Positions 14,559 to 23,744 of a stretch of DNA of 33,779 nucleotides are shown in pieces. How positions within the stretch are numbered: the first letter of the stretch is position 1; every line of letters begins with the position of its first letter. This DNA is from an uncultured Cryomorphaceae bacterium (GTDB taxonomy: Bacteria > Bacteroidota > Bacteroidia > Flavobacteriales_D > Parvicellaceae), in assembly GCA_947311505.1 (NCBI GenBank), contig CAMZLL010000016.1, positions 1 to 33,779 of the forward strand, written 5' to 3'. The translations under genes were made by a program, and so were the position numbers. The notes under the pieces were generated by a model. That model had not been told where the DNA came from. It worked only from the letters and a program-made list of their open reading frames with translations, and searched no databases.

Positions 14559-16406
14559 TTACGTTTCAAAAAAACGATGAATCTGTATCAACATCCACAG
14601 TCGATTATATAGATAATCTTCTCCTTTGAGATATCTCTGAATAAGTGAGTTTACGATTTCAAAACGGACTATTCCAGCATTTTCTACGCGAGTTTTTGAT
14701 AAAAAAGTATCTATTAAGTATTTGAGGTCTGTTTTCAACCATTTGCTTAACGGTACCGAAAATCCTTTTTTTGGTCTATCAAATAATGCTTTGGGTAAGT
14801 ACTGATATAAAACTTGCTTTAGAATGTACTTCGATTCTCCATTTTTATATTTTAATTGAGGGGCAATATTCATTGCGTACGATACCACATTATGATCTAA
14901 TAATGGAACTCTAACCTCTAACGAATGAAACATTGAAGACCTATCTACTTTAACCAATAAATCATCTTTTAAATAGTTTTTTAAATCAAAAAATGCTTGA
15001 CCCTCCATTGGATTTAATGTTCGGCTTAGGTCGAATTCTTCCAATATAAGATTGCCCTTATTCGGATTAATTAAAAGTTGTTCTATTTCACGTTTTGAAA
15101 ATAAATATTGTTCTTGAGAGAAAATATGACTTTTTAAATGTTGTTTTGAAGGAGCGTTCAGTACCAATGCCCCTCTCTTGTATTTTTTGTTACCTAAAAT
15201 GTTTAGTGATTTTGAAATGGGTTTTCTTAAAGTGTACAATAGAGAATTGCTCAATCGCTCTGCCCAATTATACATTCCATATCCTAAAAACAACTCATCA
15301 CCTCCGTCTCCTGACAGCGCAACGGTTATTTGTTTTTTTGCCATTTGACAAACTAACAGTGTCGGTATGGCAGAGGAATCTCCAAATGGTTCATCAAATA
15401 CATCGAACAATTTATCTACTTCCGCTATGGCATCTTGTTCGCTTAAAATAAGCTCGTTGTGATTGGTTTTTAGTGTTTTTGCTATTTCTTTAGCATATTT
15501 ACTTTCATCTTGTTTTTGGTCTTTAAATCCTATCGAAAAGGTATTGATGGGACTATTGGATAATTTTTGAGCGGTGGCTGTTATTAAACTTGAATCTATT
15601 CCGCCACTAAGAAATGTTCCCAAAGGTACATCTGCAAGCATTCGCTGTGCTACAGCATTGCTAATTTTATGATCTAATTCTTTTACCACTTGATCTTCAT
15701 TAGAAAATAATTCTTTCTGTACGATGTCTTCAATTTTCCAAAAACTATTATTTTTAACTATAATACCATTTGCAACTTGCATGTAATTTCCGCTTTCTAC
15801 CTTTCTGATTTCGTTATAAATAGAACTATTACCAGTAGCATATCCATAGTGCAATAAGTCGGTAATGGTATCAAAATTTACTGTTAGGTTTTCTTTTTCG
15901 ACAAGGCTTACTAATGCTTTTATTTCTGATGCAAAGGCAAAGCAATCATCTTTCTGATAATAGTAAAGAGGTTTAATGCCTAATCTGTCTCTGAATAATA
16001 GCAGCTCTTTTTTTGTAATGTCCCAAATAGCTATGGCAAACATCCCGTTTAATTTATTTACAAAATCGGCTCCCCAAGTAGCAAATGCTTCTAGTACAAC
16101 TTCGGTGTCTGAATTGGTTTTGGGTTCAAACTTATGTTTAAATTTAAGTTCTTTTATTATTTCTTTGTAGTTGTAAATCTCTCCATTGAATACCATTTTA
16201 TAACCACCACACTGACTGGTGTATGGTTGGTTTGCATTAGTGGTTAGGTCTATAATACTCAATCTTCGGTGTCCTAAGCCAATTCTCGATTGTTCATCGA
16301 AAAAAGCAGCACCAGCATCAGGACCTCGATGCTGAAGAACATTAGTCATTTGTTCTAAATCTTCTTTAGAATACTGTGATGATATAAAGCCGGAAATTCC
16401 GCACAT
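14559..16406 (-). CDS. asnB: AsnB-like glutamine-dependent amidotransferase (first copy)
   Basis: A 615-aa class II amidotransferase. Cys2 after the initiator Met (MCGISGF) is the glutaminase nucleophile, with LQHRGPD, GLGHRRLSIIDL and FNGEIYNY completing that domain. The PP-loop SGGIDSS at residues 267-273, followed by ALSGDGGDELF, binds ATP in the synthetase domain. Free asparagine synthesis is possible. In surface-polysaccharide loci, homologues (Pseudomonas WbpS, Francisella WbtH) are instead thought to amidate uronic acids to uronamides, and the location favours that here. It shares its strand with the downstream GT4. A second, clearly divergent copy lies at 21930-23744. The 5' side carries a 16-nt palindrome and a TTTCTTTG box. 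Confidence 0.93.
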   Translation of the reverse strand: MCGISGFISSQYSKEDLEQMTNVLQHRGPDAGAAFFDEQSRIGLGHRRLSIIDLTTNANQPYTSQCGGYKMVFNGEIYNYKEIIKELKFKHKFEPKTNSDTEVVLEAFATWGADFVNKLNGMFAIAIWDITKKELLLFRDRLGIKPLYYYQKDDCFAFASEIKALVSLVEKENLTVNFDTITDLLHYGYATGNSSIYNEIRKVESGNYMQVANGIIVKNNSFWKIEDIVQKELFSNEDQVVKELDHKISNAVAQRMLADVPLGTFLSGGIDSSLITATAQKLSNSPINTFSIGFKDQKQDESKYAKEIAKTLKTNHNELILSEQDAIAEVDKLFDVFDEPFGDSSAIPTLLVCQMAKKQITVALSGDGGDELFLGYGMYNWAERLSNSLLYTLRKPISKSLNILGNKKYKRGALVLNAPSKQHLKSHIFSQEQYLFSKREIEQLLINPNKGNLILEEFDLSRTLNPMEGQAFFDLKNYLKDDLLVKVDRSSMFHSLEVRVPLLDHNVVSYAMNIAPQLKYKNGESKYILKQVLYQYLPKALFDRPKKGFSVPLSKWLKTDLKYLIDTFLSKTRVENAGIVRFEIVNSLIQRYLKGEDYLYNRLWMLIQIHRFFET

Positions 16407-16655: not shown

Positions 16656-16690
16656 TGGAAAAATATGGAATCTGATTCCATATTTTTCCA
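16656..16690. promoter_or_regulatory. Operator-like inverted repeat with four evenly spaced half-sites
   Basis: Perfect inverted repeat of 16-bp arms (16656-16671 and 16675-16690) around a 3-nt centre. Inside it the pentamer TGGAA occurs at 16656 and 16666, and its complement TTCCA at 16676 and 16686, so the four half-sites are exactly 10 bp apart, one helical turn. The last half-site touches the TATATTTG box of the DUF4143 gene. Such phasing is what a cooperatively binding repressor would use. As RNA it would form a 16-bp hairpin, but transcription from the adjacent box would begin downstream of it. Confidence 0.7.
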
Positions 16691-16698
16691 TATATTTG
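16691..16698 (+). promoter_or_regulatory. -7 box TATATTTG for the DUF4143 gene
   Basis: Exact TAnnTTTG match ending 4 nt before the ATG at 16703. With initiation some 5-7 nt downstream of the box, the transcript would be leaderless or nearly so. The upstream operator covers the region where the -33 element should be. Confidence 0.5.
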
Positions 16699-16702
16699 TA
16701 AT

Positions 16703-17869
16703 ATGATTTACAGAAATGCAACAAAAAGACTCGAATATTTAGCTGAAACTTTTAAAGTTATTGCAGTAGTAGGACCAAGGCAGTCGGGAAAAACGACTTT
16801 GGTAAAAGCAACTTTCCCCAACAAAACATATATTTCTTTAGAAAACCCAGATAACAGAAGTTTTGCGTTAGAAGATCCGAGAGGTTTTTTGCAAAGCATT
16901 CCTAATGGAGCTATTTTAGATGAAATACAAAGAACTCCTTTGTTATTTTCCTATTTACAAGAAATAATAGATAATAGTAAAGAAAAGGGATTGTTTATTC
17001 TTACGGGTTCAAACAATTTTTTACTCCAGGAGAATATAACACAAAGTTTAGCTGGACGGATTGGGTATTTAAGCTTATTACCTTTTTCTGTTTCAGAATT
17101 AGAGTGCAATAAAATGATGAATTTCAACAATAACGACTGGTTAGTCAATGGCTTTTATCCTCCCATTTATGACCAGGAAATTAAACCTGAAGATTGGTAT
17201 CCAAACTATATTAAAACGTATATAGAAAGAGATGTTAGACAGATAAAAAACATTAATAATTTAGCCGTTTTTGAAAAGTTTGTCAAAATATTAGCAGGAA
17301 GAACCGGGCAAGAACTCAACTATAATGCAATCTGCACAGAAGTTGGGGTAGATCTAAAAACCATAAAATCTTGGATAGGAATTTTAGAAAGTAGTTTTAT
17401 TATTTATTTATTAAAATCGCACCACAAAAATTTCAATAAAACCATTGTAAAGAGACCCAAAATATATTTTTATGATGTTGGGCTTGTATGTTCTTTGTTG
17501 GGAATAAGACAACTAAGTCATATTGAAAACAATCCGTTTAGAGGTGCTATATTTGAAACAATGGTTGTAGGTGAAATTATTAAACACTACACAAACAAAG
17601 GCATAGAGCCACCAATATATTATTGGAGAGACAAAACAGGACATGAAATAGATGTGATAATAGATGACTCCTACAAATTGACACCAATTGAAATAAAGTC
17701 TGGACAAACAATTACTTCTTCTTGGTTCAAAAATCTAAACTATTGGAAAAACCTAAGCAAAGAAAAAAACGCCTATATTTTATACGGGGGCGAACAGGAA
17801 CAAAAAAGAAGTGATAGCATAAATGTATTTAACTGGAAAAAAATAGAGTTCATTGAATATAAATATTGA
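16703..17869 (+). CDS. AAA ATPase with DUF4143 C-terminal domain
   Basis: A 388-aa ATPase of the large, mobile and functionally undefined AAA_14/DUF4143 family. Walker A is GPRQSGKTTL near residues 24-33, Walker B is AILDEIQ near residue 73, and a sensor-like FILTGSNNFLL follows. The second half has the DUF4143 features: YIERDVRQI, an HTH-like stretch (ICTEVGVDLKTIKSW), then FYDVGLVCSLLG and FRGAIFETMVVGEI. The C-terminal YYWRDKTGHEIDVII with PIEIKSG gives the D...E-x-K pattern of PD-(D/E)XK nucleases. It is full length. It is the only forward gene between reverse-strand polysaccharide genes and has its own operator and promoter, which suggests independent acquisition. A DNA-processing, defence or toxin-like role is speculation. 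Confidence 0.9.
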   Translation: MIYRNATKRLEYLAETFKVIAVVGPRQSGKTTLVKATFPNKTYISLENPDNRSFALEDPRGFLQSIPNGAILDEIQRTPLLFSYLQEIIDNSKEKGLFILTGSNNFLLQENITQSLAGRIGYLSLLPFSVSELECNKMMNFNNNDWLVNGFYPPIYDQEIKPEDWYPNYIKTYIERDVRQIKNINNLAVFEKFVKILAGRTGQELNYNAICTEVGVDLKTIKSWIGILESSFIIYLLKSHHKNFNKTIVKRPKIYFYDVGLVCSLLGIRQLSHIENNPFRGAIFETMVVGEIIKHYTNKGIEPPIYYWRDKTGHEIDVIIDDSYKLTPIEIKSGQTITSSWFKNLNYWKNLSKEKNAYILYGGEQEQKRSDSINVFNWKKIEFIEYKY

Positions 17870-21929: not shown

Positions 21930-23744
21930 TTAAATACAGTTTGCGAGCATTAAATATTGCCAGTTAAGTTGTTCATTTTTGTGTGTGATAATTTTATGAT
22001 CTTTCAATTTCGTTACAGCACATGTTATTTTTTTTTCAAAAAAAGAATTTGCTTGCCAGTCGTCTTGTGGGATAGCGTAACCTATTTTATCTTTACGCCA
22101 TGTAATTTTATCAGGTAACAAATCCTCCATACTTTTTCTTAAAATAAATTTAGTCCATCCTGATTTGATTAAATATTCGTTTGGTAAAGAAAATAAAAAC
22201 TCAACAAGCTTATGGCTTAAAAAAGGAAGCCTAACTTCTATCGAGTGTGCCATTGAATTTCTGTCAGAGTATCTTAGCAACTCGGTCAATCCCGAGTTAA
22301 TTGTCGAGTGATAGAGCCTTTCTTTTAGGTTGGGAGCAAAATATAACGGATTTTCTATTTTTTTATATTCGCTAACTAACTCTGGATTTATTCCATTAAA
22401 ATAAGTAGAGGTAGTTCTTTTAATGTTTTTAGCTAGTTCACTTGCTTTTCTTTTTAGCTTATAATTCAATGCCTCAAACTTAAAGTTTAAATTAGCATTG
22501 ATGCTGTTGTTGTTTCTTAGGTTTTTAAAATCCTGAAATTCAAGGTTAAACTTGTTTCTGTTAGATTTATAGAGCTCTTGTAAGTAGGCTTCAAAGTGCC
22601 TTTCGTAGCCTGCTAATATCTCATCTGCTCCCTGTCCATCTTGTAGCACGATAACGTTGTTGTTTTTGGCTAGTTTCATTACCTCAAACTGGGCGTTGAT
22701 ACTAAAACTCCCAAAAGGTTCTTCTTGATGGTAAATCAATTTTTCAAAATTTTCATTAGCACTTTTTGCTGTTGGATATACAGAGAAACACTCCACATTG
22801 GCACTTCTAGTGATTAAATCAATAAATTTTCCTTCATCCTTTTCGAAGTTTTTGAATCTAGCTGAGAACGTTTTTTGTTTTTGACTCTCAGCCTTTAGTC
22901 TATCTATAGCCATCACAATTGAGGAGGAGTCTAAACCTCCTGATAAGCTACTTCCTATTGGGACATCACTTCTCAATCGTTTATTTACAGAATCTAAAAA
23001 TAATTCGCGAAATCTTTTTTGCGCATCCTCAAAAGAAATATCTAATTCAATAGTCAGGTCTATATCCCAATATTTTATTTGTTTTATTTTTAAATCTTTT
23101 TTTATAATTATATAATGGGCTGGTTTCAATTGGAAAATGTTTTGAAAAAATGTTGATGATTTATCAATTGGATCATCAATATTTCCATACATCAAATATT
23201 GATAATATCTTTTTAAGTTCTTTGTTTTTGGAGTTCCAGTTGCCCAAAGAGCTTTCATTTCTGAAGCAAAAGAAAAGCTCTTTTTGTCTAAATAGTAGAA
23301 AAAAGGTTTCTCGCCAAATCGATCTCTAGCGCAAAATAATTCTTGCGTATATTCATCCCAAATTGCAAAAGAAAACATGCCATCTAAATCGTCAAGACAC
23401 TTTTCTTTTTTAAGGTCAAATAATGCTAAAAGAACTTCGGTGTCTGAATCGGACTTAAAAGTGAAGCCTTTTTTTTGCAGTTCTTTTTTTAGTTCGATAT
23501 AATTATAGATTTCCCCATTAAAAGTAATAGTGTAACGACCATTTGCATAATGCATAGGTTGCGTCCCTTTTTTAGTTAAGTCTATTATAGAGAGTCTTCG
23601 ATGGCCTAATCCAATAGTTTTATTTTCATTAGTCCATTGTCCCTCACCGTCAGGACCTCTATGAATTAACGAATCCGTCATTTGTTTTAAATTATCGGGA
23701 TTTACTTTGCTATTAAGTGTGATTATGCCAGCTATTCCGCACAT
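21930..23744 (-). CDS. asnB: AsnB-like glutamine-dependent amidotransferase (second copy)
   Basis: A 604-aa class II amidotransferase with Cys2 (MCGIAGI), LIHRGPDGEGQW, FNGEIYNYIELK and the PP-loop SGGLDSS at residues 268-274. The synthetase half differs from the first copy: it has VLQDGQGADEILAGYERHF instead of the SGDGGDELFLGY type, and an insert rich in Asn, Lys and Phe before a SDRNSMAHSIEVRLPFL motif. It lies 3 nt after the flippase and 2 nt before a glycosyltransferase, firmly inside an operon. Homologues in O-antigen loci are proposed to amidate sugars. Two divergent copies could act on two sugars, or one could make asparagine. Confidence 0.93.
   Translation of the reverse strand: MCGIAGIITLNSKVNPDNLKQMTDSLIHRGPDGEGQWTNENKTIGLGHRRLSIIDLTKKGTQPMHYANGRYTITFNGEIYNYIELKKELQKKGFTFKSDSDTEVLLALFDLKKEKCLDDLDGMFSFAIWDEYTQELFCARDRFGEKPFFYYLDKKSFSFASEMKALWATGTPKTKNLKRYYQYLMYGNIDDPIDKSSTFFQNIFQLKPAHYIIIKKDLKIKQIKYWDIDLTIELDISFEDAQKRFRELFLDSVNKRLRSDVPIGSSLSGGLDSSSIVMAIDRLKAESQKQKTFSARFKNFEKDEGKFIDLITRSANVECFSVYPTAKSANENFEKLIYHQEEPFGSFSINAQFEVMKLAKNNNVIVLQDGQGADEILAGYERHFEAYLQELYKSNRNKFNLEFQDFKNLRNNNSINANLNFKFEALNYKLKRKASELAKNIKRTTSTYFNGINPELVSEYKKIENPLYFAPNLKERLYHSTINSGLTELLRYSDRNSMAHSIEVRLPFLSHKLVEFLFSLPNEYLIKSGWTKFILRKSMEDLLPDKITWRKDKIGYAIPQDDWQANSFFEKKITCAVTKLKDHKIITHKNEQLNWQYLMLANCI

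Follow-up and report, generated by a model that had tools for sequence, protein, structure and literature searches.

A DUF4143 ATPase-nuclease gene of an uncultured Cryomorphaceae bacterium is preceded by a 35-bp perfect palindrome, which is probably an autoregulatory operator read, as a repressor, by the product of the gene itself. The site was located within a contig stretch of 33,779 nucleotides, referred to in full as the window. The symmetry of the site extends over 35 bp; the site is linked to the gene, it has diverged alongside the protein, and its bases are coupled to particular residues of that protein. Judged from these patterns in sequence, recognition by the ATPase-nuclease of its own predicted operator is well supported.

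The palindrome, its promoter and its gene

The predicted operator, TGGAAAAATATGGAATC-T-GATTCCATATTTTTCCA, occupies positions 16656..16690 (no strand assigned; full sequence TGGAAAAATATGGAATCTGATTCCATATTTTTCCA) and was assigned from its symmetry and its conservation in orthologues. The arrangement TGGAA-N5-TGGAA-N5-TTCCA-N5-TTCCA, described in the original prediction, was recovered with 0 mismatches, the half-sites starting at 16656, 16666, 16676 and 16686 (10-bp steps); the symmetry of the inverted repeat was perfect as claimed, but its length had been given as 16 bp and measured 35 bp, two 17-nt arms around a 1-nt centre. The left outer box (TGGAA, 16656..16660) spans distances 13–17 from the centre and is degenerate (TTGTCTTTTT) in several orthologues; the left inner box (TGGAA, 16666..16670) contains a GG pair at distances 5 and 6 that is coupled to residue 219 of the protein; the right inner box (TTCCA, 16676..16680) was placed by sequence, and the right outer box (TTCCA, 16686..16690) lies immediately beside the -7 promoter element (none of the four boxes was assigned a strand). 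When at most 3 mismatches were allowed, the four-half-site pattern matched once in the window and 0 times in 100 window shuffles. The palindrome motif is present as a single copy in its own genome, and its core-plus-promoter form, also with ≤3 mismatches, had no further copy across 395 sampled Bacteroidota genomes.

The -7 element TATATTTG (16691..16698, + strand), of the Bacteroidota TAnnTTTG type, was assigned by sequence and orthologue conservation; it abuts the repeat as had been stated, and is followed by TAAT and the ATG at 16703, leaving 12 bp between the operator end and the ATG. From the box-to-ATG distance the ATPase transcript would be nearly leaderless. The element is invariant or nearly so at -12..-5 of the orthologues, apart from its variable N positions. 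Among upstream regions of the family, an exact TAnnTTTG box occurred in 33% compared to 5.6% of shuffles; the box mostly starts 6 or 18 bp to the right of the operator centre and typically ends 3–6 nt from the ATG.

The gene (16703..17869, + strand; ORF and profile matches) encodes 388 aa and is annotated by PADLOC as the phage-defence candidate PDC-S01 (PDLC04790, E 4.3e-98, along with six other PDC-S01 models). Its designation as a DUF4143 ATPase was borne out by PF13635 (DUF4143; 175.8 bits, gathering score 28.1) and PF13173 (AAA_14; 97.6 bits, gathering score 27); no significant family was found for the protein in PHROGs or NCBIfam, and a sequence search for a solved homologue found none. 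The gene is oriented opposite to its neighbours, an asparagine-synthase-like gene and a glycosyltransferase gene of a polysaccharide locus. This one locus has two asparagine-synthase-like genes (window 14559–16406 and 21930–23744), which flank the ATPase gene together with a run of glycosyltransferase genes.

The AlphaFold2 model of the protein (pLDDT 88.5) comprises the ATPase, a winged helix-turn-helix (wHTH) at residues 187–256 (17261..17470, + strand; block mean pLDDT 88–95) and a C-terminal nuclease-like domain. Walker A/B residues are kept in 99–100% of 223 homologues. The order of a P-loop ATPase followed by a wHTH is the NB-ARC-like arrangement of STAND-type proteins, as judged from the model and from VIA structural matches, which were led by 2qen (Z 15.2) and 2fna (Z 14.5) over residues 1–267, followed by NLRs and AVAST5 (Z about 11–13). 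The recognition helix of the wHTH in the model is 218–230, with residue 219 at its start; codons 217–219 (D-L-K, 17351..17359, + strand) specify its N-terminus and are coupled to operator distances 5–7. The C-terminal domain is a predicted PD-(D/E)XK nuclease with intact motif: its active-site region E285...D317...E330-x-K332 (17555..17698, + strand) is conserved in 99–100% of the same 223 homologues (E285 100%, D317 100%, E330 99%, K332 100%). Codons 311–312 (K-T, 17633..17638, + strand), which are coupled to operator distances 14–16, though more weakly on the tree, lie in a beta-hairpin turn shortly before the catalytic D317; in the model the turn of the 305–310/315–321 hairpin contains residue 312, five residues ahead of D317.

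Conservation of the site and the 35-bp format of the family

Loss of the motif in close relatives had been named as the result that would count against the original prediction. The comparison was run and the core site proved common to homologues in other Bacteroidota at 58–68% identity: a site of roughly TATGGAATNNGATTCCA...TTCCATATNTTTG, four bases from the start, was found by contig search for 13/13 of the best homologues in that range. For 14 orthologues the pairwise identity upstream of -60 was about 0.26, which is background; it was 0.5–1.0 in the majority of columns between -47 and -5, and was again at background 10 nt past the stop codon. Several orthologues are without the left outer box. 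Five upstream regions (L005, L010, L011, L015 and L016) share TGTCTTTTT or TATCTTTTT in its place, at about -47 to -38, and keep the other three boxes.

The window's own genome has three DUF4143 gene copies with three different palindromes. Mean operator similarity was 0.776 for orthologues across genomes, 0.494 for same-genome paralogues and 0.490 for all pairs. Because the operators of same-genome paralogues are unrelated, the operator follows the protein and not the host; it overlaps the promoter of its own gene and accompanies that gene between genomes. In partial Mantel comparisons with operator similarity the wHTH was the best predictor (0.232), compared to 0.079 for the nuclease and -0.08 for the ATPase domain. 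An exact match to the site was absent from viral contigs, and viral spread of the same site was rejected.

The format was assessed in a first set of 131 distinct upstream regions, drawn from the 395-genome sample and a species collection, and in a hold-out set of 95 genes from an independent sample. Symmetry was scored as complementary pairs out of 15, with a cut-off of ≥11; this score was adopted because a palindrome score requiring long exact arms overlooked many mismatched operators. In the first set 82% of genes reached the cut-off, compared to 7% for shuffled sequences and 8% each for distal upstream and downstream sequences; the hold-out values were 76%, compared to 11%, 12% and 23%, respectively. 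Across the 131 upstream regions the pair frequency was 0.89–1.0 at distances 13–17 and at most 0.59 past 17, placing the limit of symmetry at 17. Symmetric covariation reached z of about 9.5–13.5 against shuffled partners at distances 5–7 and 13–17, with several pair types at each; operator sequences vary between clades while the symmetry is maintained, and an A/T-rich stretch occupies distances 8–12 in nearly all operators.

About a quarter of the family members are without a clear palindrome, and some of these have direct repeats. Several departures from the usual form were seen. The region upstream of a 47%-identity homologue (L053, G371:C1) contains a 61-bp perfect palindrome with 30-nt arms that reaches the start codon, where 35 bp is usual. 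A genome of candidate division TM6 (G397, the source of L026) has 23 DUF4143 matches in 1.3 Mb, and the palindromes of the copies examined were mostly weak or absent. DUF4143 genes also occur on Wolbachia plasmid pWALBA2 (L267) and on the unverified faecal phage contig MT836366 (L278), the latter with a good palindrome. Related DUF234 ATPase genes (L280–L283 and L285, a small sample) have inverted repeats just upstream, with scores of 11–14. For the comparison family AAA-ATPase_like (PF09820) a clear palindrome was found in 0/4 loci, which is likewise a small sample.

Coupling between protein residues and operator bases

To score couplings, each protein column was compared with each operator position by mutual information, corrected by average product; d5 denotes distance 5 from the centre. 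The top pairs in the first set were 219-d5, 312-d16, 219-d6 and 218-d7, with 311-d14 at rank 6; these pairs were fixed and then tried on the hold-out set. There, 219-d5, 218-d7, 217-d5 and 219-d6 ranked 1–4 of 5,236, with 312-d16 at rank 7 and 311-d14 at rank 61. The inner half-site code reads K219-GG, P219-AA and N219-CG; in symmetric counts from both sets, K219 accompanied G at d5 in 48/49 cases, P219 accompanied A in 31/31, and N219 accompanied C in 18/20. The outer half-site code shows weaker coupling and reads N312-A, D312-C and H/K312-G (N with A16 in 41/42 symmetric counts from both sets, D with C in 9/10, H with G in 9/10). Lys or His with G, Asn with A, and Asp with C are familiar base contacts, and the code agrees with these.

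Shared ancestry was controlled for in two ways. Among 2,768 pairs of proteins at 45–85% identity, the d5 base differed in 4.5% of pairs where residue 219 was the same and in 81% where it was different, the largest contrast among 348 columns; 218-d7 and 312-d16 were also top for their own positions in these close pairs, whereas 219-d6 and 311-d14 were not. Co-changes were then counted on a tree built without the tested columns. Changes at residue 219 coincided with 17/21 base changes at d6 (nominal hypergeometric p 1e-14) and with 15/18 at d5 (4e-13), all branches being weighted equally; changes at residue 218 coincided with 15/26 at d7, and 219-d6, 219-d5 and 218-d7 took ranks 1–3 of 2,792 tests. 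For the outer box the p values, which ignore branch lengths in the same manner, were 5e-5 for 311-d15, 4e-4 for 311-d14 and 0.002 for 312-d16 (rank 59). Residue-base covariation is strong for the inner box and moderate for the outer box; reading of the outer box by the hairpin, as suggested by these couplings, is the less certain part of the code.

Where a palindrome is missing, the same half-operator is often present as direct repeats spaced 22–23 bp. The upstream regions of L070, L107, L222, L224, L225, L227 and L238 show two to four such repeats at this spacing and no palindrome. For automatically detected direct-repeat operators, which were outside the fit, the code agreed in 36/62 readings compared to 38.5% with shuffled residues (p 0.0005), a figure lowered by a wrong repeat register in some genes (e.g., L232 and L233). 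At six loci mostly outside Bacteroidota, which include the unverified faecal phage contig of unknown host, agreement was 31/42 readings; Treponema succinifaciens agreed in 8/8 and a Deltaproteobacterial locus agreed poorly. The fit of the direct-repeat and non-Bacteroidota readings lends support to one half-operator per protomer, whether the site is palindromic or tandem.

Proposed self-repression, its alternatives and known systems

In the mechanism that we propose, a dimer of the ATPase-nuclease would sit on the palindrome, each protomer occupying a 17-bp arm; the recognition helix of the wHTH (217–219) would read the inner box, and the hairpin 311–312 of the PD-(D/E)XK domain would assist in reading the outer box. 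The couplings fit two half-operators, in each of which an inner box goes with the helix and an outer box with the nuclease-domain loop, probably with a single protomer on each arm. The bound protein would extend over the promoter as far as the -7 box, shutting down its own nearly leaderless transcript until a trigger releases it; infection and an altered nucleotide state are conceivable triggers. Repression is inferred because the operator overlaps the promoter. The original prediction had proposed cooperative repression from four half-sites: the placing of an operator over the promoter holds by position, conservation and symmetry, and repression is probable, while the four-site scheme gave way to two half-operators, which fit. 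For a defence candidate, its suggestion that the ATPase is costly to express, or that expression has to be triggered, is plausible. Against the proposed mechanism stands that the wHTH of STAND-type proteins often has an autoinhibitory role instead of binding DNA.

The start of the -7 box lies at about +6 in some members and about +18 in others, counted from the operator centre, a difference of roughly one helical turn. With a geometry that varies in this way, the protein might be an activator, or a sensor of its ATP state that switches between activation and repression; steric overlap with the core promoter would favour repression, and we regard this alternative as unlikely. A host transcription factor repressing the gene from the palindrome, one of the binders that the original prediction considered, would suit a site that overlaps the promoter, and separate regulators do most transcriptional control. 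Yet the operators of same-genome paralogues are unrelated, and orthologous genes have their operator in common across genomes, making a host regulator very unlikely; the hold-out set and the tree also tie the operator to the recognition helix of the ATPase itself. A host regulon was rejected, the motif being unique in its genome and missing from the rest of the 395 genomes.

We consider it equally improbable that the palindrome serves as an end for recombination or transposition, by which the gene would be mobilised, or that the nuclease targets it. Conservation does run from the palindrome to the stop codon, the gene is opposed to its neighbours in the polysaccharide locus, and the nuclease motif is intact; but the site adjoins the promoter and start codon in this clade, and paralogue sites differ. 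A mobile-element end was rejected, as the genome has no second copy and the 3' end is not conserved. Operator cleavage may be a secondary role of the nuclease. An RNA hairpin, acting as leader or terminator, would explain a long perfect inverted repeat beside the start codon and is scarcely credible, for in this clade the repeat precedes the -7 box, which probably places it outside the mRNA, and the couplings involve DNA-binding residues; an RNA element was rejected with the absence of an Rfam match. Self-repression is the reading that we carry forward. Its extension to the whole family is doubtful: DUF4143/PDC-S01 proteins might form an extensive and diversified group of STAND-like ATPase-nucleases that address themselves. 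Every copy would have its own bipartite 35-bp address, recognised by the wHTH together with a hairpin beside the active site of the nuclease; paralogues would thereby be kept orthogonal, and the nuclease would be parked at its own promoter, and perhaps act on it, until released or retargeted by an invader.

Across prokaryotes, PDC-S01 is reported to rank fourth in frequency among defence annotations, and most candidates of its kind still await validation (PMC12988326). The window protein shares the ATPase and PD-(D/E)XK architecture given there for PDC-S01 (DUF4143/COG1373 ATPases). The open-access literature searched reported no operator, autoregulation or DNA-recognition code for DUF4143/PDC-S01. 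The predicted operator, the residue-base code and a promoter readout would together provide a first testable molecular activity for PDC-S01. The code (K219-GG, N312-A, D312-C and others) is open to testing with point mutants; operator and code could serve in locating start codons and true family members, in predicting which copies cross-regulate, and in a reporter screen for the trigger.

The single lead from expression is the DUF4143 gene TT_P0211 of Thermus, reported to be increased 6.6-fold in plasmid-bearing HB27, only with TtAgo present (PMC4406477). It was rejected as an example of the 35-bp format, the DUF4143-like gene presumed to be TT_P0211 having instead an inverted repeat with 9-nt arms upstream. 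This ATP-binding-protein gene, TT_RS11170 (L265, upstream of 26074, minus strand), is preceded by the inverted repeats TGCCATCTC-N5-GAGATGGCA and TGAATG-N5-CATTCA.

Mycobacterial IniR resembles the window protein in its ATPase domain (predicted to be SSO1545-like) and binds promoter DNA, but it does so with a separate C-terminal DNA-binding domain, and its target is iniBAC and not its own gene (PMC5760070). The archaeal STAND-type ATPases SSO1545 (2fna) and PAB2304 (2qen) have the same ATPase and wHTH arrangement as the window protein, the matches being limited to its residues 1–267; in the open-access papers searched an operator function was not found described for either. With the I-TevI endonuclease autorepressor, P1 ParA, C proteins and BrxR/CapW, the operator lies over the gene's own promoter and is bound by the gene product or by a partner. 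Compared with these systems, the window protein unites a STAND-like ATPase, a wHTH and a PD-(D/E)XK domain in one polypeptide, and the hairpin of its nuclease appears, from the couplings, to be involved in reading the operator.
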